This document shows positions 23,545-31,235 of a DNA stretch of 64,000 nt, piece after piece; the first letter of the stretch is position 1, and the number at the start of each line of letters is the position of its first letter. The notes beneath the pieces are model-generated. The model had not been told where the DNA came from. It did no database searches and saw only the letters and a list, made by a program, of their open reading frames with translations. This DNA is from Cuniculiplasma divulgatum (lineage in GTDB: Archaea > Thermoplasmatota > Thermoplasmata > Thermoplasmatales > Thermoplasmataceae). The stretch covers positions 434,001-498,000 of the forward strand of contig CP133595.1 of assembly GCA_031200235.1 (NCBI GenBank), read 5' to 3'. The translations under genes and the position numbers were made by a program.

Positions 23545-24579
23545 ATGGATTACGATGCAGTTATAGTTGGAGCAGGAACTGCAGGCCTCTCTGCCGGTGC
23601 TTCACTTGAGAGAGCCGGAAAGAGTTATATAATTCTTGACAGGAAGGAAGAAATTGGACTTCCCGTGAGATCAACTGGAGCTGTATCGCTTGAATGGGTC
23701 AATAGAATAGGAATGCCCACCAGCAGTTCCATCGTGGCCTCTGAAATAATGGCCATGGACTTCAGGACCGACCTTGGAAGACACATTCCCCTGAAGTTTG
23801 ACAGACCGGTGGGACTTGTTTATGATTTTACAAGGTATGAGAAATATCTTTCAGATGAATTCGCAGGTAAGCTCAATATTAAGTTGCACACACTGGTGAA
23901 ATCAATCGACGGCAATACCGTCACAACGGATAGCGGCAGCATAACTGCAGAAAGCATAATCATGGCTGCAGGTCCCCAGTCAGCTTTCGGAAAGAAGCTG
24001 GACCGGAATAACGTACTTGTAGCCTATGAGGAAATAAGGGAGCTGCCCAGGAGAGATGATTTCCAGATGATACTCTGGTTCAGTGATATGGCACCTGGTG
24101 GATATTTCTGGGACTTCGCAAATACCGATGATACGAGAAAGGTGGGGGTCTGCTTCTACCCCGTAAATTCACAGCAACCCAAAGCTGTCCTTGACAGGTT
24201 CACTGAAAAGTTTCCGGAGATCAGGGGAAGGATGCTCCACACCATGGCTCATCAGATTCCCCTATCCAGACCTGCTGACTCAGTTGTTTCACAGAACAGG
24301 CTTTATACTGGCGATATGGTGAATGCGGTCCTCAACACAACTGCCGGAGGCCTCCAGGGAGCCTTCTGGTCCGGAAAAGCTGCGGGAGAGGCCGTAGCTG
24401 CGGGAGATATAAGCAGGTACCAGGCAACCTGGGACAGCGAGATAAAACCATGGCTGATGAAACACCATGTACTGCACAGGAGAATACATAAGAATGGCGC
24501 AAAATCAGTAAACAGGTACATAACCCTGGCAAAGTTGATGCCGAAGTCTGTCAAGAAGCAGGTTTTTGGCGGGTTATGA
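23545..24579 (+). CDS. Geranylgeranyl reductase-family flavoprotein
   Basis: 344 residues. FAD-binding GAGTAGLSAGASLERAGK starts at about residue 8, RSTGAVSLEWVNRIG follows, and the second FAD motif is LYTGDMVNAVLNTTAGGLQGAFWSGKAAGEA (GD motif). This matches the geranylgeranyl reductase group that saturates isoprenoid double bonds in archaeal lipids or quinone tails. The C-terminal 60 residues are helical and basic, often seen in membrane-surface enzymes. TATA-like ACATATATG and AAGGAATAAA precede the ATG. It may act on the lipids made from the mevalonate route at 11.7 kb, but other isoprenoids are possible. Confidence 0.83.
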   Translation: MDYDAVIVGAGTAGLSAGASLERAGKSYIILDRKEEIGLPVRSTGAVSLEWVNRIGMPTSSSIVASEIMAMDFRTDLGRHIPLKFDRPVGLVYDFTRYEKYLSDEFAGKLNIKLHTLVKSIDGNTVTTDSGSITAESIIMAAGPQSAFGKKLDRNNVLVAYEEIRELPRRDDFQMILWFSDMAPGGYFWDFANTDDTRKVGVCFYPVNSQQPKAVLDRFTEKFPEIRGRMLHTMAHQIPLSRPADSVVSQNRLYTGDMVNAVLNTTAGGLQGAFWSGKAAGEAVAAGDISRYQATWDSEIKPWLMKHHVLHRRIHKNGAKSVNRYITLAKLMPKSVKKQVFGGL

Positions 24580-24655
24580 TCATAACTCATCTCCTGAAAG
24601 ACTGTGGGCAATCCTTCGCATAGATTTAAAATTCATCTGTCTATTATCCCATCGT

Positions 24656-24728
24656 GCCGCTGTAGCTCAGCAGGTAGAGCAGCTGATTCGTAATCAGCAG
24701 GTCGGGGGTTCAAATCCCTCCAGCGGCT
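24656..24728 (+). tRNA. tRNA-Thr (anticodon CGT)
   Basis: The acceptor stem GCCGCTG/CAGCGGC pairs perfectly. The anticodon stem GCTGA/TCAGC closes the loop TTCGTAA, giving anticodon CGT (codon ACG, Thr). The T arm is GGGGGTTCAAATCCCTC. The discriminator is T and CCA is not encoded. TATA-like ATTTAAAA lies about 27 bases upstream. Its 3' part (from the anticodon loop) is copied at 26259-26302. Confidence 0.95.
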
Positions 24729-24729
24729 T
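24686..24729 (+). repeat. att-like direct repeat, copy 1 (inside tRNA-Thr)
   Basis: 44 bases from the anticodon stem-loop to one base past the tRNA end. The same segment recurs at 26259-26302 with 41 of 44 positions identical; the differences are at 24700, 24716 and 24718. The intact tRNA is at this end. Confidence 0.85.
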
Positions 24730-24804
24730 GCTTACATAATACTGAGTTTTTGACATATTGAATGGGTTATTTTTGTTGTGTTTGAAATTTTTACTTTCCT
24801 GTAA

Positions 24805-24899
24805 ATTTTCACCTACTTGATAATGTATTTTTCCTTTAGTTTCAATAATTTTCCGCATATCCTGTATCATATATTTTCTATTTTCTCCTACCTGATTAT
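24805..24899. repeat. Two imperfect 20-bp direct repeats
   Basis: The segments 24805-24824 and 24880-24899 agree at 17 of 20 positions (attttc-cctac-tgat-at) and are 75 bases apart. They lie between tRNA-Thr and the transposase remnant, in a stretch (24729-24946) with no gene I can support. They could be protein-binding repeats of the former element or a trace of its coding DNA. Confidence 0.4.
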
Positions 24900-24946
24900 A
24901 CTGAAGTTTTCGCAAAAACACATGTTTAAGCGAGACCTTTTCAACC

Positions 24947-25402
24947 TCAACTCTTCAGAAAAGTAGGCACATGTTCCGGCTTGATGCCAAGTGATTCCAG
25001 AATTTCCTTCTGCTTCCTGGTTATCTCTGTTGTGATCTCCTTTCCGCCATTCAATATTACCTTCCTGAGCTTGTGTAGTTCCAGTAGCATCTTCTCAATG
25101 GAGTATTTCTTCAGCAGGCCTGATGATCTCATGTATTCCAGAATCCTGAACCTGATGGCAATTGCAATGAGATTCACGAACATCTCCCCTCTCAATGCCT
25201 CCATGCCGTGAATCCTCAACGGTTCTCCTCCAGTGAATGTCCTGGATGACATGAATAGCGTTTCTACAGCATTCCTCCTACGATATCCTGAAAGGACAAA
25301 TTACGCATTATGGTCACCGATGAACGTTATTACTGTGATGTTGTATCTGCTCAACCTCTGTGACACGGCAGTATCCCTTATCCACAATTGGAATCTCAGC
25401 TT
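24947..25402 (-). pseudogene. Decayed DDE transposase, C-terminal remnant (IS4/IS1634-like)
   Basis: The last 101 residues carry the typical end of these transposases: MEALRGEMFVNLIAIAIRFRI, KYSIEKMLLELHKLRKVIL and EITRKQKEILESLGI. The same frame continues upstream through RRRNAVETLFMSS, an in-frame TAA (25301-25303) and a further 33 codons (to QLWIRDTAVSQRLSRYN), before another stop at 25403. The N-terminal two thirds with the first catalytic aspartates is missing. It is not functional. Confidence 0.82.
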
Positions 25403-25508
25403 TTAAACACATTATAAACCAATGAAGCACTTTATCCTAGTTACAAAAGAGATGAAATCAATGTCGATTCAAATCACGGAGAAGGGAGCAAATATTTATA
25501 AAATGTAG

Positions 25509-25530
25509 ATATGTATGTGTATATACATAT
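25509..25530. promoter_or_regulatory. Inverted repeat (operator candidate) at the vapB start
   Basis: Perfect 8-base arms ATATGTAT (25509-25516) and ATACATAT (25523-25530) separated by six bases, overlapping the ATG (25529). A TATA-like TTTATAAA stands at about 25494-25501, near -30 of that ATG, so a leaderless message is likely. VapBC complexes commonly bind such palindromes to repress their own promoter. Confidence 0.65.
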
Positions 25531-25744
25531 GTCTACTAAAAACATTGCACTCAGAGAAGACGTATACAAAAAATTGAAAGAGGTAAAAGGGCCAGACGAG
25601 AGCTTTAGTGATGCAATAGAAGGGTTATTGAAAAGGAATGTAAGTCTCTTGCCTCTTTGGAGTTCATTATCTGAATCCGAGGCACTTGACCTCATTGAGA
25701 CCGACTTAAAGGCAATTAGAAATGGAGCCAAGATTAGAGTATGA
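25529..25744 (+). CDS. VapB-type antitoxin (COG1753/UPF0330-like)
   Basis: 71 residues from ATG 25529. The sequence STKNIALREDVYKKLKEVK, then ESFSDAIEGLLKR, matches the archaeal VapB antitoxins whose N-terminus is a short DNA-binding part. The C-terminal tail (SEALDLIETDLKAIRNGAKIRV) would wrap the toxin. The gene overlaps vapC by four bases (ATGA). An in-frame ATG at 25511 exists, but the promoter layout favours 25529. It would neutralise the PIN RNase and repress its own operon. Confidence 0.88.
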   Translation: MSTKNIALREDVYKKLKEVKGPDESFSDAIEGLLKRNVSLLPLWSSLSESEALDLIETDLKAIRNGAKIRV

Positions 25745-26142
25745 TTATTTTCGACACTTCCGCCATAATAGATTTCCTAAAAGGTGGAGTGAAAACCAGG
25801 TCTATTGTGGAGGAAATAGAGAGTAATCGAGAGAGTGTATACACTACAGTAATTTCCCAATATGAACTACTTACCCCAGTATATCATAAGGGAATGAAAG
25901 GTGAGGAAAGGAATATTAGGGCTTTTCTCAGACGATCTATTGTATTTCCACTTGATCAGAATTCTGCCGAAGAGGCATCTCGCATAATGGGAAGTCTGTT
26001 TAAGCTTGGTCTTCCAATTAATGCACTTGATACCCTGATAGCTGGCATTGCGATCGAAACAGGAACAGATAAGATAGCTACACTTGATCGAGATTTTATA
26101 CAGATTGCAAAGGTAACCGACCTTGACATGATAATCATATGA
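25741..26142 (+). CDS. VapC-type PIN-domain toxin ribonuclease
   Basis: 133 residues, a complete PIN domain. The metal-binding acidic residues are in place: D5 (IIFDTSAII), E42 (SQYELL), D97 (NALDTLIAG) and D116/D118 (TLDRDF). VapC toxins cut specific RNAs, often initiator tRNA or rRNA, with Mg2+. It overlaps the antitoxin gene and lies inside the tRNA-Thr-bounded relic. It appears intact. Confidence 0.9.
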   Translation: MIIFDTSAIIDFLKGGVKTRSIVEEIESNRESVYTTVISQYELLTPVYHKGMKGEERNIRAFLRRSIVFPLDQNSAEEASRIMGSLFKLGLPINALDTLIAGIAIETGTDKIATLDRDFIQIAKVTDLDMIII

Positions 26143-26180
26143 AACTTCAACTGGAGTAGCTTGATATATTATCACTAAAT

Positions 26181-26201
26181 CCTGAATCTGAACCTTTCAG
26201 G
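26181..26201. terminator. Short inverted repeat after vapC
   Basis: CCTGAA (26181-26186) pairs with TTCAGG (26196-26201) across a nine-base loop, 38 bases after the vapC stop, followed by A-rich then T-rich sequence (around 26228-26240). A weak transcription end signal is possible. Confidence 0.3.
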
Positions 26202-26258
26202 AAATAGAAAATTTGCAAATAAATCAATTTCTTTTCTCTAAAAACGCATATGTTTGTA

Positions 26259-26302
26259 ATTCGTAATCAGCACGTCGGGGGTTCAAATGCGTCCAGCGGC
26301 TT
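26259..26302 (+). repeat. att-like direct repeat, copy 2 (tRNA-Thr 3' fragment)
   Basis: Identical to 24686-24729 at 41 of 44 positions. It covers the anticodon loop to the discriminator of tRNA-Thr but lacks the 5' half, so it cannot form a tRNA. Changes at 26273, 26289 and 26291 damage the variable and T-arm bases, as expected for an unselected copy. Confidence 0.85.
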
Positions 26303-26407
26303 CCTTCTCATGGCTTTTTTCATAGAATGCCATGATCTTGTTATGTTTAACCACAGTTCGAGTCCGCCAGCAGTGAAGTACATGGAACCGAAATAGTTAA
26401 TAAACAA

Positions 26408-26431
26408 CATTACAATTACGTAATTGTAATG
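26408..26431. promoter_or_regulatory. Perfect 24-bp palindrome over the antitoxin start (operator)
   Basis: The sequence from 26408 to 26431 reads the same on both strands (CATTACAATTAC and its complement), and its last three bases are the ATG of the ribbon-helix-helix gene. An AT-rich TATA candidate (GTTAATAAAC, about 26396-26405) is directly upstream. RHH antitoxins bind such palindromes as paired dimers, so this is most likely the autoregulatory operator. Confidence 0.8.
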
Positions 26432-26692
26432 ACCAAAGAGACGATCCAGATCAGAATTGATGAAGAGACCTCTAAGTTAGTTAATCAAATGCTCAGATCA
26501 GGTCTTTTCAGGACAAAGAGTGATGCTCTCAGGTATATTTTATCCGCAGGAATAATTGCTGCTGCGAAATTTCCAGAGGTCTCCGAGAAAGTTGAGAGAC
26601 TTAAGTCCATGGAGAAAACTACTGGAAGATCACCCATCGAATTGTCAGGGAGCCTCAAAGACCTTCTGGTTAATAGGGACAGATTCAATTGA
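26429..26692 (+). CDS. Ribbon-helix-helix antitoxin
   Basis: 87 residues. The N-terminal strand ETIQIRIDEETSKLV followed by two helices (NQMLRSGLFRTKSDALRYILSAGI) is a clear MetJ/Arc-type ribbon-helix-helix domain. The C-terminal part would bind the toxin. The start coincides with a perfect 24-bp palindrome, and the TGA stop overlaps the TTG start of the PIN gene. It is the antitoxin and autorepressor of a second VapBC-like pair. Confidence 0.88.
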   Translation: MTKETIQIRIDEETSKLVNQMLRSGLFRTKSDALRYILSAGIIAAAKFPEVSEKVERLKSMEKTTGRSPIELSGSLKDLLVNRDRFN

Positions 26693-27180
26693 AATATATT
26701 GACACTAGTGTAATTGTCTCTGCCCTTGATCCGGCGGATCCATCCTCCATTAGTTCGAACGAAGTCCTCCAGAAGCAGGAAAAGGTAGTTTCAGAGCTAG
26801 TGATCACTGAACTAAGCTCAGTTCTGTCAAGAAATAAGAATTTTGTGACTCTCATGGATGAACTTTCTGGAGACAGGGCATCCAGTTCTTACGCCATGAT
26901 TCTATATATTCTCAAGAAGTTTGATCTTCTGTTTCTTCCGGTTCAACAAATTCAGGTTGAAATGCCTATTGGGAATTACGGAAACATCATGTCGTTCGCC
27001 GTTGAACTCTCAAGAGATATTCCAATGAGGACACTGGATTTACTTCATCTCTCTTACGCACACGCAATGATGGAGTCAACAAAAGCGGATATTGAATTGA
27101 TAACTAGAGACAGGGAATTCGAAATTTACAAATCAGAGATATACAGTGCCGCAGGAATCAAAGTAATGTATTTCGCATGA
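26689..27180 (+). CDS. PIN-domain toxin, second pair
   Basis: 163 residues beginning at TTG 26689, which overlaps the antitoxin stop (TTGA), so translation is coupled. PIN acidic residues are D5 (KYIDTSVIV), E41 (VITELSSVL), the aspartate in MRTLDLLHLSYA and that in ITRDREF. It is longer than classic VapC, with an insertion in the middle (about residues 85-110). Presumed RNase toxin. The IS605-type element begins just after its stop, and the gene seems undamaged. Confidence 0.87.
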   Translation: MKYIDTSVIVSALDPADPSSISSNEVLQKQEKVVSELVITELSSVLSRNKNFVTLMDELSGDRASSSYAMILYILKKFDLLFLPVQQIQVEMPIGNYGNIMSFAVELSRDIPMRTLDLLHLSYAHAMMESTKADIELITRDREFEIYKSEIYSAAGIKVMYFA

Positions 27181-27194
27181 TTCAGTGACATCCT

Positions 27195-27214
27195 CCCCGC
27201 CCTATGGGACGGGG
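27195..27214 (-). repeat. IS605-type right-end hairpin
   Basis: CCCCG (27195-27199) pairs with CGGGG (27210-27214) and CCC with GGG inside it, with one bulged base and a three-base loop. It overlaps the tnpB stop. Such subterminal hairpins are recognised by the Y1 transposase and form part of the 3' end of the TnpB guide RNA. Confidence 0.75.
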
Positions 27215-28404
27215 CTTCCTGCTTCTGCGATCTGAGTTGCCCTTTCGGGTAGTGCCCTGATCTCCACAGGCGTAACTTCGGGAGTGCCCCTCCCTACTTT
27301 CTCTAATGCCCGATTGTGGATGTTGATTGCAGCATTGAGATCCCTGTCGATTTCAAAACCGCAATGATCACATCTGAAGACTCTCGTTGAGAGTTTCAGT
27401 TCCTGCTCCCTGTATCCACAGTTTGAACATTCTCTTGATGTGCTTCGTGGATCCACAAGTACTACTTCCTTACCGGCACTCTCAGTCTTGTATGTAGTGT
27501 ATTGTACCAGTTTATTCCATGAAGCATCAGCTATGCTTTTTGCTAAATGATGATTCTTCATCATTCCTGTTATGTTCAGATCCTCGAAAACGATGAGATC
27601 ATTGTTTTGCACCATCTGATTTGACAGCTTGTGTGCAAAATCCTCTCTCTGGTTCTTCACCTTTTGATGCTGCTTTGAGAGGCTGATCTTTGCCTTCTCT
27701 TGGTTGTTTGATCCCTTCTTCTTGTGTGACAGGTTCCTCTGTGCCTTTTTGATCCTTTTCTCTCCCTTCTTCAGAAATTTTGGAGGATCAACCACAGTTC
27801 CGTCACTCATTGTTGCCAGATGCAGGAGGCCGGCATCAATGCCGATGCTGTTGCCAGTCTTCTCTGGCTGAATGGTAACACTCTCCTGCTTCACGGAGAA
27901 TGGTGCATACCATTTCCCTGATCCGTCATGTGAGATGTTGAGTGTTCTGGTCTCACCTTCAATCTCACGGTGCATGAACTTTCTTATTGTCCCGATCTTT
28001 GAAAGCCTCAGATGTCAGTTCTCCATGAGAGTGAAGCGGGATTGCGGGTATGTCAGTGACCTGTATCTTCCCTTACCTTTCAGTCTCGGGAAACCTGCCT
28101 TCTGCTTGACACCCTGCTTCTTCTCCCTTATTCTTCCATAGAAGTTCTGGTATGCACGATCAACTCTTCTGGCAACATCCTGCAATACCTGTGAATGTAT
28201 GTTCCGGTATTCATCAAAAGTATTCTTCAGTTCAGGTATCTCATTCTGCTGATGGTTGTATGTGAGGGTTTTCTTTGATCCCCTGTAAGCGTATCTCCTT
28301 TCCAGCAGTAATGAATTGTACAGTTCCCTGCAGAGTTTCACCTGTTCATTGAGTTTTTCTTCCTGATCCGCAGATGGGTACAGCCTGAACTTATACGCTT
28401 TCAA
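27202..28404 (-). pseudogene. tnpB: TnpB (IS605 OrfB) with one in-frame stop
   Basis: Read as one frame of 400 codons from TTG 28404, interrupted only by TGA at 28015-28017 after SRFTLMEN; the frame continues directly as HLRLSKIGTIRK. Glycine is usual at this position, so GGA to TGA is the simplest change. All RuvC residues remain: D in GIDAGLLHL, E in VFEDLNITGM, D in DRDLNAA, and the zinc finger CSNC/CDHC. TnpB is an RNA-guided DNA nuclease of the transposon. With the stop, the two parts would be 129 and about 257-270 residues; an internal ATG at 27975 could give a C-terminal fragment. Confidence 0.87.
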
Positions 28405-28743
28405 TCCTCTTTTCCTCCTGTGATTCCACGTACTTCATCAACACAGGGAGAGTTACCTGGCCCGATGTTGCCAGAAAGTATGATGGTGACCACAGTTTAC
28501 CGTTTCATAGGACTTTGGTGACCTCCGGGAATTTCCTCTGTATTTCTCTGGACGTTATGGTTTTCACTGCATTCACAAATTCAGTGATTCTCAGTACAGG
28601 AGTTCCCCTGAAGAGCATATGGAAATGATCCTCGTCACATTCCATTGAAACAACCTCCACGCCCGATCTATCCGCTATCTCCCTCACCTTTATTTTGAGG
28701 AAGTCCACCAAACCATCATCAGTGAAGCTTCTTGAGAGTATGT
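28391..28743 (-). pseudogene. tnpA: TnpA (IS200/IS605 Y1 transposase) remnant
   Basis: From ILSRSFTDDGLVDFLKIKV onward the frame follows Y1 transposases: GVEVVSMECDEDHFHMLF holds the HUH metal motif (HFH), then TSREIQRKFPEV. A TGA at 28505-28507 interrupts where Trp is usual; the frame continues NGKLWSPSYFLATSG, with the catalytic tyrosine region, and ends at TAA 28391, overlapping tnpB. The N-terminus (usual YRR region) is not recognisable upstream. Not functional. Confidence 0.8.
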
Positions 28744-28936
28744 TATGAAAATAAAAATGTTCGAATGAAAGAACTTCTGAAAATTCTTCGTCCCCAATAT
28801 TACGCCCTTTGCAAGCGCTGGCACACCGGATCGATGTGATCAAAGTCATTTTATTAAGGCACTCAGCATTTCTGACTGGCAGAAGAATGAAGCTGAAGTT
28901 TATGTATTCGTTGATTCTGGCTGCTGGGGAAAGCAG

Positions 28937-29248
28937 ATGAGTGGTCGCGGAACTGATAAGAAAGGTACCCATTGCAAGCCTGATGCTTCAGGTGTTGTTC
29001 CCAGAGTCGACCCGGCAAAATGCGAAGCGAAGGGTGAGTGTGTGAAAGTTTGCCCATACGAGGTTTTTGAAATCAGACCCAGAACATCCGGTGAAATTTC
29101 AGATCTGGGTTTTCTCGGACGCATAAAGGCAAAGGCCCACGGAAACAGGATTGCCGGCACCCCCGGCCTGGACAGATGCCACTCCTGCAGTGATTGTGTT
29201 ACGGCATGCCCTGAGGGGGCAATTCGGTTTGTACCGAGAAATCAGTGA
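28937..29248 (+). CDS. Ferredoxin with two Fe-S cluster sites
   Basis: 103 residues. The C-terminal site is a classical 4Fe-4S motif C-x2-C-x2-C-x3-CP (CHSCSDCVTACP). The first site reads KCEAKGECVKVCP (C-x5-C-x3-CP), the spacing seen in seven-iron ferredoxins. A 35-residue insertion with basic and glycine residues separates them. Cytosolic electron carrier. ATG 28937 is preceded by GGGGAAAGCAG. Upstream is the decayed insertion element, so its original promoter may have been altered. Confidence 0.88.
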   Translation: MSGRGTDKKGTHCKPDASGVVPRVDPAKCEAKGECVKVCPYEVFEIRPRTSGEISDLGFLGRIKAKAHGNRIAGTPGLDRCHSCSDCVTACPEGAIRFVPRNQ

Positions 29249-29406
29249 TCTCCCGGACCCCATTTGTTAATGAATCGGCACCGGCAGAAAACGCAGCTTC
29301 CATGCCAGCCATGTGACAAATGCCATTGTGAAGTCCACGAAGTGGCCGTACAATTATGAACATTGAACGCACAAACCATTTCGTCCGAAAACAGAAAATG
29401 GCAGTG

Positions 29407-29976
29407 TCATTCTTTGCTGATATCCTGGTCTGGATTCCTGGCTGATATCTGTGCATTCTCCCGGGACTTTTTGCTGAATTCAAACATCCTTTTCTGGATT
29501 GCTATCTGGAATGCTTCCCCAAGTATGAGGCCGGAGAGGTATGAAAGTATGATGCTCAGGAAGAAACCCGCCGTAACATCGTAATAGATCAGCAGGTAAA
29601 TCCTCACCACGAAGGCTATTGTCCAGGCAAGCCCAATTATGGGGGAACGCCTGTAATGAAGGATTTTCTTCTTTTCGAAGAATTTGACCTGTCCCTTGAA
29701 CAGTGATGAGAGTCCCAGCCCAAGGGCGAAGGCGATGGAGCAGGCAAGCAGTTCAATTGTGGTCAGCCCCACATATGTGGCACCCGTAAAGGCAAGATAA
29801 AGCAGGGGCGAAAATATGAGTGACCTTGCAGAATACTTCCCGCCCAGAGAAATCCTTATGATCCTGCGGCCAACGAATATGGCAACAAATGCGCTGAAGA
29901 AGATGTCCTTGTACCTGAATATTATTGAGTAGGCTATGCTTTCAATGGTTTCAGACAACTGCGTGATGTTTATCAT
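29407..29976 (-). CDS. Hypothetical integral membrane protein
   Basis: 189 residues with about five hydrophobic helices (roughly 20-38, 52-72, 75-93, 112-132, 135-159) and a charged C-terminal tail of 30 residues. The layout, with a KKKILHYRRSP loop before helix 4, resembles CcdC/DUF1453-like small membrane proteins but similarity is weak. No signal peptide cleavage site. It stands alone. Function unknown. Confidence 0.72.
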   Translation of the reverse strand: MINITQLSETIESIAYSIIFRYKDIFFSAFVAIFVGRRIIRISLGGKYSARSLIFSPLLYLAFTGATYVGLTTIELLACSIAFALGLGLSSLFKGQVKFFEKKKILHYRRSPIIGLAWTIAFVVRIYLLIYYDVTAGFFLSIILSYLSGLILGEAFQIAIQKRMFEFSKKSRENAQISARNPDQDISKE

Positions 29977-30023
29977 AAAGCTATTCTGTCATGATGCAAT
30001 ATTTCGCATGGTATAAAAATATA

Positions 30024-31235
30024 CTACTGTAGGTTCCTGCCTGAAATCCGGATTGAATCACTGCAGTAGAGGGCAATGCCAGAGGGCACCTTTGGATAGA
30101 AGTATGTGGATTTCTGTGGGAGCAGGCGGCCATCCTCTATCATGGATATGAAGACAGATTTGTTCCATTCAGGCATTAGGAATGAAAAACCTGATCTGCC
30201 GCTGTCAACCTCGTCCACTGCAATGACCCTGTTGTGCGTGTAAAGAACCTTTGTTGAGAGGTCCTTCTGGGTCATTCCCATTATCTGCCTTAGTATGAGG
30301 TTGCTCACCAGGGACGGATCCCCGGCATACTTGTACTTCTTGCTGCACCCGATTGCATCAAAGGCAATTGGCTTTGGGGATATGGAATGATATTTTCCGT
30401 CGTACAGGACTATTGATTCCTGGCCATGATCCCCATTCATCTCCCTGACATCGAAATATTCACGGATGCTATCCATAAATGCTGAAATCTCAAACTCCCT
30501 GCTTACAACCCTGTGAATCCCACCAATCAGGAGGGAATCACTTTGAAGCGATGTAACATACGCCATGGTGAATTTCCAGAAATCCCTGTTTTCGCCGTTG
30601 CTTTCAAGATAAAGATTCCTTGTTGCCTGCAGCCTGTGATGGCCATCGGCGACCACTGCATTCTCTCTCTGCAGTGACTGCCTGATGCTCTCTATTGACC
30701 GCGGATCAGTCAGGAAATACACTGAATTTGCCACCCCATCCGGCTCCTGGAAGGTCTTTGCCGGGGACATCTGCCTTACGGCGGCCCTGAGTATCCGCTC
30801 GAAACTGGTGCCGTTCACTGTCAGGAAAATTGGTTCCAGCTGGCAGGATGTCTTCTCCATAAGTTTTCTTCTTTCCTCCACAGCCCATGGAAATGTTTCC
30901 TCATGTGCCAGGACATCCTTCCTCTCCGGCGATGTCTCCACCGGGGAAATTATTCCAATCCTTGATATGCGGCGTCCCCCCACATGTATTTCCTGGTCCA
31001 GTATGATGAGGCAATCGCTGCCAAAAGTTTCTAAAACTCCATCCTTCCTCCACTGTGCCAGGGTGCCAAGTGCATTCTCAAGGATTCCGTGGCGCGGCAT
31101 GGTTATGTGGGTTATGTTGAAGGGACTGGACTTGAGCCTCGCCTCATGATCCTGCGAGATTATGTCCACCGGAGGGGAAGTGGTTCCTTCAAGATCACCC
31201 CTGTAAACAAGCGGGCGAAATGGAATGAGATTCAA
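30024..31235 (-). CDS. DUF1015 family protein
   Basis: 403 residues. IPFRPLVYRG at the start, PPVDIIS (the family's PPYDVI), and VVADGHHRLQATRNLY near residue 195 are hallmarks of DUF1015 (COG4198). The DGHHR motif resembles ParB/Srx-type nucleotide-binding proteins, so an ATP- or CTP-dependent activity is possible. The biochemical function is not established to my knowledge. Its ATG overlaps the stop of nfo by four bases, placing it in the trmB-nfo operon. Confidence 0.88.
   Translation of the reverse strand: MNLIPFRPLVYRGDLEGTTSPPVDIISQDHEARLKSSPFNITHITMPRHGILENALGTLAQWRKDGVLETFGSDCLIILDQEIHVGGRRISRIGIISPVETSPERKDVLAHEETFPWAVEERRKLMEKTSCQLEPIFLTVNGTSFERILRAAVRQMSPAKTFQEPDGVANSVYFLTDPRSIESIRQSLQRENAVVADGHHRLQATRNLYLESNGENRDFWKFTMAYVTSLQSDSLLIGGIHRVVSREFEISAFMDSIREYFDVREMNGDHGQESIVLYDGKYHSISPKPIAFDAIGCSKKYKYAGDPSLVSNLILRQIMGMTQKDLSTKVLYTHNRVIAVDEVDSGRSGFSFLMPEWNKSVFISMIEDGRLLPQKSTYFYPKVPSGIALYCSDSIRISGRNLQ

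Follow-up and report, generated by a model that had tools for sequence, protein, structure and literature searches.

The tRNA-Thr(CGT) locus

A stretch of 64,000 nucleotides from the acidophilic archaeon Cuniculiplasma divulgatum (contig CP133595.1, positions 434,001 to 498,000), here called the window, was analyzed around its tRNA-Thr(CGT) gene. Behind that gene lies a 1.57-kb unit with an open vapB1/vapC1 toxin-antitoxin (TA) pair, bounded on both sides by the 3′ part of the tRNA. The unit is probably a complete member of a family of integrase-less cassettes that insert site-specifically into Thermoplasmata tRNA-Thr genes, mostly of the CGT and sometimes of the TGT type. Its features, in window positions, are:

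24656..24728, + strand: intact tRNA-Thr(CGT), putative insertion port (ARAGORN, Rfam RF00005)
24686..24729, + strand: attachment core, proximal copy, the tRNA 3′ part (41/44 with the distal copy)
24730..24978, + strand: LE1, conserved cassette left end (profile match; the LE1 model R1 matches the genome only here)
24947..25252, − strand: transposase C-terminal relic within the cassette (32% over 78 aa to a transposase-like open reading frame (ORF) of a relative)
25511..25744, + strand: vapB1 antitoxin (PF02697, E 4.9e-15)
25741..26142, + strand: vapC1 PIN toxin (PF01850, E 4.1e-14; VapC1 alignment)
26190..26256, + strand: RE, conserved cassette right end (profile match, this RE being itself in the training set)
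26259..26302, + strand: attachment core, distal copy, a putative displaced tRNA 3′ fragment (41/44 repeat)

An earlier note on this DNA had reported a 44-bp repeat at 24686-24729 and 26259-26302, and the two copies are indeed direct repeats with 41/44 identical bases. The next best 44-mer match anywhere in the window reached 27/44, and identity just outside the copies dropped to 6/30 and 8/30. Two half-repeat patterns each matched just these two sites in the window (shuffling expectation 0.00–0.01). The proximal copy corresponds to nt 31–74 of the intact tRNA, which was the sole match reported by Rfam in 24000–30000. The contents described by the same note, a truncated transposase and vapBC with no integrase, were borne out by the ORFs and by Pfam, both of which placed no integrase between the copies. 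The transposase-like relic is 101 aa long, its comparator is a protein of 464 aa, and Pfam assigned the relic to no family at E 0.01. The reading of the fragment as an integration footprint is supported: from the anticodon loop to the tRNA 3′ end, it has the extent left by SSV-type integrases of the host family (see below).

The locus thus has the tRNA 3′ part directly repeated at its two borders and keeps the tRNA intact, as elements integrated in tRNA genes generally do. Attachment sites at both ends, and neither integrase nor transfer genes, also give it the make-up of a cis-mobilizable element (CIME). Within 10 kb downstream on the same strand, a long 3′ fragment follows only this one of the genome's 45 tRNA genes. 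The Val(GAC), Ala(TGC), His and Thr(TGT) genes are followed, again on their own strand, by short fragments of 14–20 nt. Those behind tRNA-Val(GAC) and tRNA-Ala(TGC) are 19–20 nt long, lie 1.6 and 2.1 kb downstream (near 574162 and 925171; L093, L097), and are possibly older integrations with a T-loop border.

Fragments and empty sites in relatives

When 61 genomes were searched with the window tRNA, 3′ fragments appeared near tRNA-Thr in many relatives. The tRNA-Thr loci were fetched and each was searched with its own tRNA. Because these 59 tRNA-Thr genes were partly chosen for a visible fragment, the rates of downstream fragments are biased: 15/32 for Thr(CGT), 4/26 for Thr(TGT) and 0/1 for Thr(GGT). 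The fuller map holds 33 fragments in 27 of 81 loci, and 32 of the 33 start at tRNA nt 28–36, the anticodon loop. At every locus that contains a tRNA-Thr, all fragments lie downstream of it on the same strand. In many genera, units of 1–5 kb with no integrase are the usual form, and they occur in tandem.

Relatives lacking the insertion, a comparison that the earlier note had proposed, do exist, and their junctions are precise, as expected generally of integrative elements. G013, which has a cassette, and its congener G029, which has none, agree at 226/227 positions over the left flank and tRNA and at 193/201 from the core through the right flank. G003 belongs to the same genus as the window; there the intact tRNA runs straight into the segment of a second TA pair (VapBC2), matching the window fragment and the sequence downstream of it at 164/197 positions; G003 lacks exactly the 1.57-kb unit. 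Likewise, the sequence lying behind the second fragment of G020 directly adjoins the tRNA in G018 (232/250). At the level of sequence, cassettes are present or absent with precise junctions and are stacked in tandem behind the tRNA. Relatives seem to have gained, lost and traded them at tRNA-Thr.

Two further loci were recorded. The G004 bin has two tRNA-Thr(CGT) contigs (L053, L054), one with a VapBC1 unit and fragment and the other fragment-free; they are probably two strains differing in the cassette. In G012 (L055, 3902–3998) two tandem tRNA-Thr fragments start 57 bp apart, perhaps as a cargo-less att unit or a duplication.

Conserved cassette ends

LE1 is the conserved sequence found directly after tRNA-Thr and directly after several fragments; RE is the one directly before fragments. 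A typical cassette therefore reads, at the level of sequence, [tRNA-Thr 3′ core]-LE1-cargo-RE-[core]. Mean column identity of LE1 is 67%. The model R1 was built from LE1 alone with no tRNA letters included, and its genome set was not selected for fragments. It matched 24 of the 77 genomes of the host family, in 14 of 19 genera, and none of the other 40 genomes searched of the order (24/117 overall). At a score of at least 24, which none of 2000 random stretches approached (15 at most), 33 of the 35 LE1 matches abut a tRNA-Thr 3′ end or a fragment. Twelve of the 35 are training sequences; among the other 23, 21 abut a tRNA-Thr end or fragment. LE1 as an ordinary flank of tRNA-Thr was considered and ruled out: it also follows fragments, and it is absent in G029 despite flanks near-identical to those of G013.

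Six loci (L057, L130, L147, L098, L058 and L053) have another left end, LE2, next to tRNA-Thr or a fragment; four of them (L057, L130, L147, L058) are its training set or nearly so. LE2 ends in the apparent C-terminal tail of a PF00589-type integrase, and three more partial LE2 matches lie in such tails away from tRNA-Thr. In C. divulgatum itself the tRNA-Thr(TGT) gene (C1:971263-971335, L098) is followed by LE2 (E 8.8e-35) and by no long fragment within 10 kb; it is perhaps a second used port. The motif TTTCC/GGAAA recurs in LE1, RE and LE2, a recurrence that was not compared with chance and for which no significance is claimed.

Cargo, tandem arrays and signs of transfer

Cargo, which consists mostly of vapBC pairs, was grouped by type, the labels VapBC1 to VapBC4 being our own (G numbers denote genomes):

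VapBC1: window, G001, G004, G015, G020, G018, G025, G023, G010, G084
VapBC2: window, G019, G023, G024, G088; part in G003
VapBC3: G025, G006
VapBC4: G012, G020, G025 (TGT), G034, G035, G071, G088
SAM methyltransferase: G017, G015 (TGT site)

Further cargo includes secreted and membrane proteins, a Fic-like protein at the TGT site of G035 and, in G083, a type I restriction system in a 5.1-kb unit of the form tRNA-LE1-[HsdM/S, HsdR]-RE-fragment. PADLOC returned nothing for either window toxin or for the 115-aa and 113-aa cargo proteins. Some VapC1 copies have a stop codon (L061, L117) and were left out of the VapC1 alignment. Cassette order and partners vary among genomes, as in these tandem arrays:

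G020: VapBC4, VapBC1, u115
G018: u115-VOC, VapBC1
G023: VapBC1, VapBC2
G025: VapBC1, VapBC3
G088: VapBC4, VapBC2

The window holds a similar pair, with these features behind the distal core:

26429..26692, + strand: vapB2, antitoxin of the second unit (open frame adjoining vapC2; no Pfam family)
26689..27180, + strand: vapC2, PIN toxin of the second unit (PF01850, E 5.1e-8)
27202..28404, − strand: TnpB-like ORFs after the second unit (ORF list; labeled from sequence reading, not by a Pfam scan)

Matches to vapB2 lie directly behind the tRNA in G003 and behind a fragment in G023. Over 1,992 bp, the window and G023, which belongs to a different genus, share this two-cassette block at 90.4% identity. 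The VapC1 toxins of the two are 94% identical and the neighboring host protein DUF1015 34%, whereas against G004, of the same genus as the window, VapC1 is 77% and DUF1015 95% identical. Over 34 pairs, toxin and DUF1015 identity were uncorrelated (rho −0.12, p 0.49). Between some genera, toxins of one type are much closer in sequence than the adjoining host gene is.

In named genomes, eight VapC1 relatives of at least 76% identity were found, all in Thermoplasmata and all at tRNA-Thr or its fragment; seven of these loci are contigs already in the set coded here by G and L numbers. Ten other relatives were found. One, at 68%, is from Thermoplasmata and has no tRNA-Thr or fragment on its locus. 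The remaining nine, at 53% or less (seven Bathyarchaeota, one Woesearchaeota, one bacterium), include none at a tRNA-Thr fragment, one of their loci having a doubtful call of an intron-split tRNA-Thr.

The surroundings of the window array were also noted. The TnpB-like ORFs directly follow vapC2 and occupy the place expected for the fragment that closes the second cassette; G023 has such a fragment, of 23 nt (L067, 5519–5541). Other genera have the DUF1015 gene, with or without a gene for a 189-aa membrane protein, upstream of tRNA-Thr and in the same orientation, an order that G003 keeps. In the window (24656–31235) and G004 these genes are found downstream and in the opposite orientation, which points to an inversion in this genus that had one end close to the tRNA.

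Candidate recombinases

PF00589 integrases were the first enzyme candidates. PF16795 (Phage_integr_3) was preferred after an ORF flush with a fragment had been read, and XerA was kept as a rival. That ORF, of 261 aa, starts in G019 at a Thr(TGT) fragment that LE1 follows (L063), and it matches PF16795 at E 2.4e-44. It also matches the PDB chains 3vcf (E 4.2e-10), 4dks and 3uxu, titled 'Probable integrase', which we take to be SSV1 integrase. Its relatives comprise 23 matches, some partial or weak, in 13 of the 77 genomes. For nine PF16795 genes, the start lies no more than 40 nt from a tRNA 3′ fragment, the types being Ala(TGC), Ala(CGC), Thr(GGT) and Thr(TGT); the fragment begins at nt 28–33 in eight cases and at nt 17 in the ninth. 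These nine genes of the host family thus show the SSV-type arrangement, a core from the anticodon loop to the tRNA 3′ end with an adjoining integrase. The window core has the same extent and no adjoining integrase. PF16795 relics occur in the tRNA-Thr(CGT) arrays of G083 and G034, which with G019 are the only genomes having integrase relics or an open gene at tRNA-Thr sites. Strong PF16795 matches were found in 7 of the 24 LE1 genomes and in 3 of the 53 others (p 0.008, uncorrected for kinship and completeness).

In the C. divulgatum genome, PF00589 matches lie at 133, 181, 328, 628, 817 and 830 kb, the array being at 459 kb. The PF00589 search, in which IntI itself was not modeled, found no IntI-type recombinase gene beside the array.

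A search of viral contigs for helper elements returned no relative of VapC1 or of the integrase, and the phage collection gave no match to the 48-nt repeat. The same attP in viruses had been suggested as a check; the exact core pattern occurs in three viral contigs, and these are bacterial phage-like and carry neither LE1 nor RE. The TGT-type core pattern occurs in no viral contig. The three core-bearing contigs have their own tRNA-Thr-like attachment site, a piece of 53–59 nt of the tRNA-Thr 3′ part (L228–L230), which in L228 adjoins an integrase-like ORF. The tRNA-Thr 3′ part also serves unrelated phages.

Proposed mechanism and possible chimeric tRNA genes

In the proposed mechanism, a circular cassette would carry RE-core-LE1 as its attP, and a tyrosine integrase would exchange strands at the anticodon loop. 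The incoming cassette would supply a new tRNA 3′ half, so that the tRNA would stay usable, and the old half would be pushed outward as the fragment; the newest cassette would then adjoin the tRNA. Less surely, the recombinase would be an SSV-type integrase (PF16795) acting in trans from helper elements with the same footprint. Since PF16795 genes lie flush with that footprint in relatives, mobilization in trans by such an integrase is likely but unproven. The array would serve as a reserve of TA and defense genes that can be swapped, and TA addiction may, by way of speculation, help an integrase-less cassette persist.

Were every cassette to bring its own tRNA 3′ half, mismatches could arise in the acceptor stem. 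Such mismatches were found at 4 of 44 Thr(CGT) loci and 0 of 28 Thr(TGT) loci, a difference that alone is not significant (p 0.15), with loci sharing ancestry and one TGT gene counted twice (L138 and L222 are the same place). The mismatch is 4:69 A.C in G003 and G025 and 6:67 C.A in another G025 contig and in G005. In the G003 tRNA-Thr, the 3′ half is of the type that the window's genus has in its other CGT genes, and the 5′ half is of the type common elsewhere. These observations suggest, and do not prove, that the mismatched genes are chimeric.

Weighing of the alternatives

Several observations weigh against a mobile cassette family. No circular form or recombination was seen. Empty sites alone cannot tell gain from loss, and the mismatch tally is short of significance. 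The distal window fragment has three substitutions, and no third fragment closing the VapBC2 unit was found by pattern search, so the window copy may be fixed. Two of the 35 LE1 matches have no clear adjoining fragment, with scores of 9 and 13 (random maximum 15), perhaps from a decayed remnant. Several units (L053, L056–L058, L061, L067) have no LE1 match, and a second left end exists. A whole-genome search of C. divulgatum found no PF16795 match. Seventeen of the 24 LE1 genomes have no strong match, many of these assemblies being incomplete, and within tRNA-Thr arrays only the G019 integrase gene is open.

The scarcity of strong PF16795 matches among LE1 genomes is also in keeping with movement by homologous recombination in tRNA-Thr, the fragments and nearby repeats, which would need no active integrase today. 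The 44-bp copies offer homology, and the block shared by the window and G023 could be cited likewise. The border nevertheless falls repeatedly at the anticodon loop while neighbors differ, which fits site-specific exchange, and LE1 is too diverged for good homology; we regard this explanation as unlikely.

A different recombinase, host XerA or a PF00589-type integrase, would leave the cassettes as they are and change only the enzyme. G018, G025, G074 and G094 have a single, strong PF00589 match in a frame of about 300 aa, presumably XerA, and LE2 carries the apparent PF00589-type tail. Set against this, no PF00589 match lies inside the mapped units, the nearest noted being about 18 kb downstream of the tRNA (G012), while PF16795 genes are flush with the same footprint. 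This assignment seems rather less probable still than homologous recombination.

The earlier note had read the unit as a deleted element in which only the TA module survived, that is, a larger integrated virus or plasmid reduced between attL and attR. The transposase relic, the integrase relics in the G083 and G034 arrays and the three substitutions in the distal fragment could be taken in that sense, and the window unit's own ancestor may have carried an integrase. That reading does not hold up well: both ends are conserved and common to cassettes of other cargo, the VapBC1 units of G015 and G025 cease to be homologous to the window unit at the same fragment, and tandem units of 1–5 kb are usual, so that repeated independent deletions to the same ends are hardly expected. 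We consider it improbable. Although a local duplication could copy a tRNA 3′ half, a duplicated remnant with no integration is scarcely credible given the precise empty sites, the conserved ends and the same footprint at integrase genes.

Relation to known systems and significance

CIMEs, for example of the ICESt1 family of Streptococcus thermophilus, derive from integrative and conjugative elements (ICEs) by deletion and move with a neighboring ICE. Like them, the tRNA-Thr cassettes are att-flanked, integrase-less and in tandem with related elements, CIMEs being moved by the recombinase of another element. Unlike CIMEs, they are one-operon units occurring family-wide with shared ends, and most genomes hold no resident autonomous partner.

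The Dehalococcoides ssrA islands (PMC3146451) are stacked in tandem behind a single RNA gene, and a displaced piece of that gene bounds each of them. Some carry the integration module and 15 lack it, the latter being possible cis-mobilizable elements according to the authors. The cassettes resemble them in their tandem units, displaced RNA-gene pieces and partial lack of an integration module. As described in that source, the islands are bacterial, use a serine recombinase and a 20-bp repeat of the tmRNA gene, and carry reductive dehalogenase cargo, whereas the cassettes have a 44-bp tRNA core, units of 1–5 kb, conserved non-coding ends, TA and defense cargo and a tyrosine (SSV-type) integrase as candidate enzyme.

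The SSV1 integrase cuts at the border of the anticodon loop, and integrase-less and tandem integrated elements are known (PMC8371274). The overlap region at the anticodon loop and the restored intact tRNA are shared with the cassettes. The SSV-type elements presented there are viruses and plasmids that lose the integrase, not a family of small cassettes with common ends. Islands of acidophilic archaea (PMC12302457, PMC5155288) are alike in having similar hosts, a place near tRNA genes and most of the vapBC operons. In the parts of those papers concerned, they are predicted islands rather than one-operon units, with no shared ends or tandem fragments described, and 'tRNA-Thr' has no match in the main text of PMC12302457.

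Integron cassettes, including archaeal ones (PMC9668308), are likewise small exchangeable units in tandem behind a fixed port. Integrons use IntI and a folded single-stranded attC; here there are a tRNA core with LE1/RE arms and PF16795 as candidate. Neither 'Thermoplasmat' nor 'tRNA' has a match in the main text of PMC9668308. The cassette array resembles an integron in outline and is not classed as one. No description of a tRNA-Thr cassette family was found in the open-access literature searched, and one may exist elsewhere.

A bolder proposal is offered tentatively, and with rather less than even confidence: the array may be an independently evolved archaeal analogue of the integron. The port would be tRNA-Thr and the sites RE-core-LE1, and SSV-type integrases of viruses or plasmids would act in trans to load, stack and exchange one-operon TA and restriction cassettes across genera of the family. 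Each event would renew the tRNA 3′ half and spread tRNA-Thr halves between species.

Read as a member of the cassette family, the apparent relic becomes part of a system that recurs, in which TA and defense genes are pooled among genomes and would move through one tRNA gene as minimal units with no mobility gene. It would give a concrete route for the spread of TA modules in archaea and a natural setting in which to test whether addiction helps DNA with no integrase to persist. It would also provide a helper and hitcher pair to seek among archaeal mobile elements, as well as natural chimeric tRNA genes. With conserved arms and a candidate enzyme in hand, the system could be tested in the laboratory.

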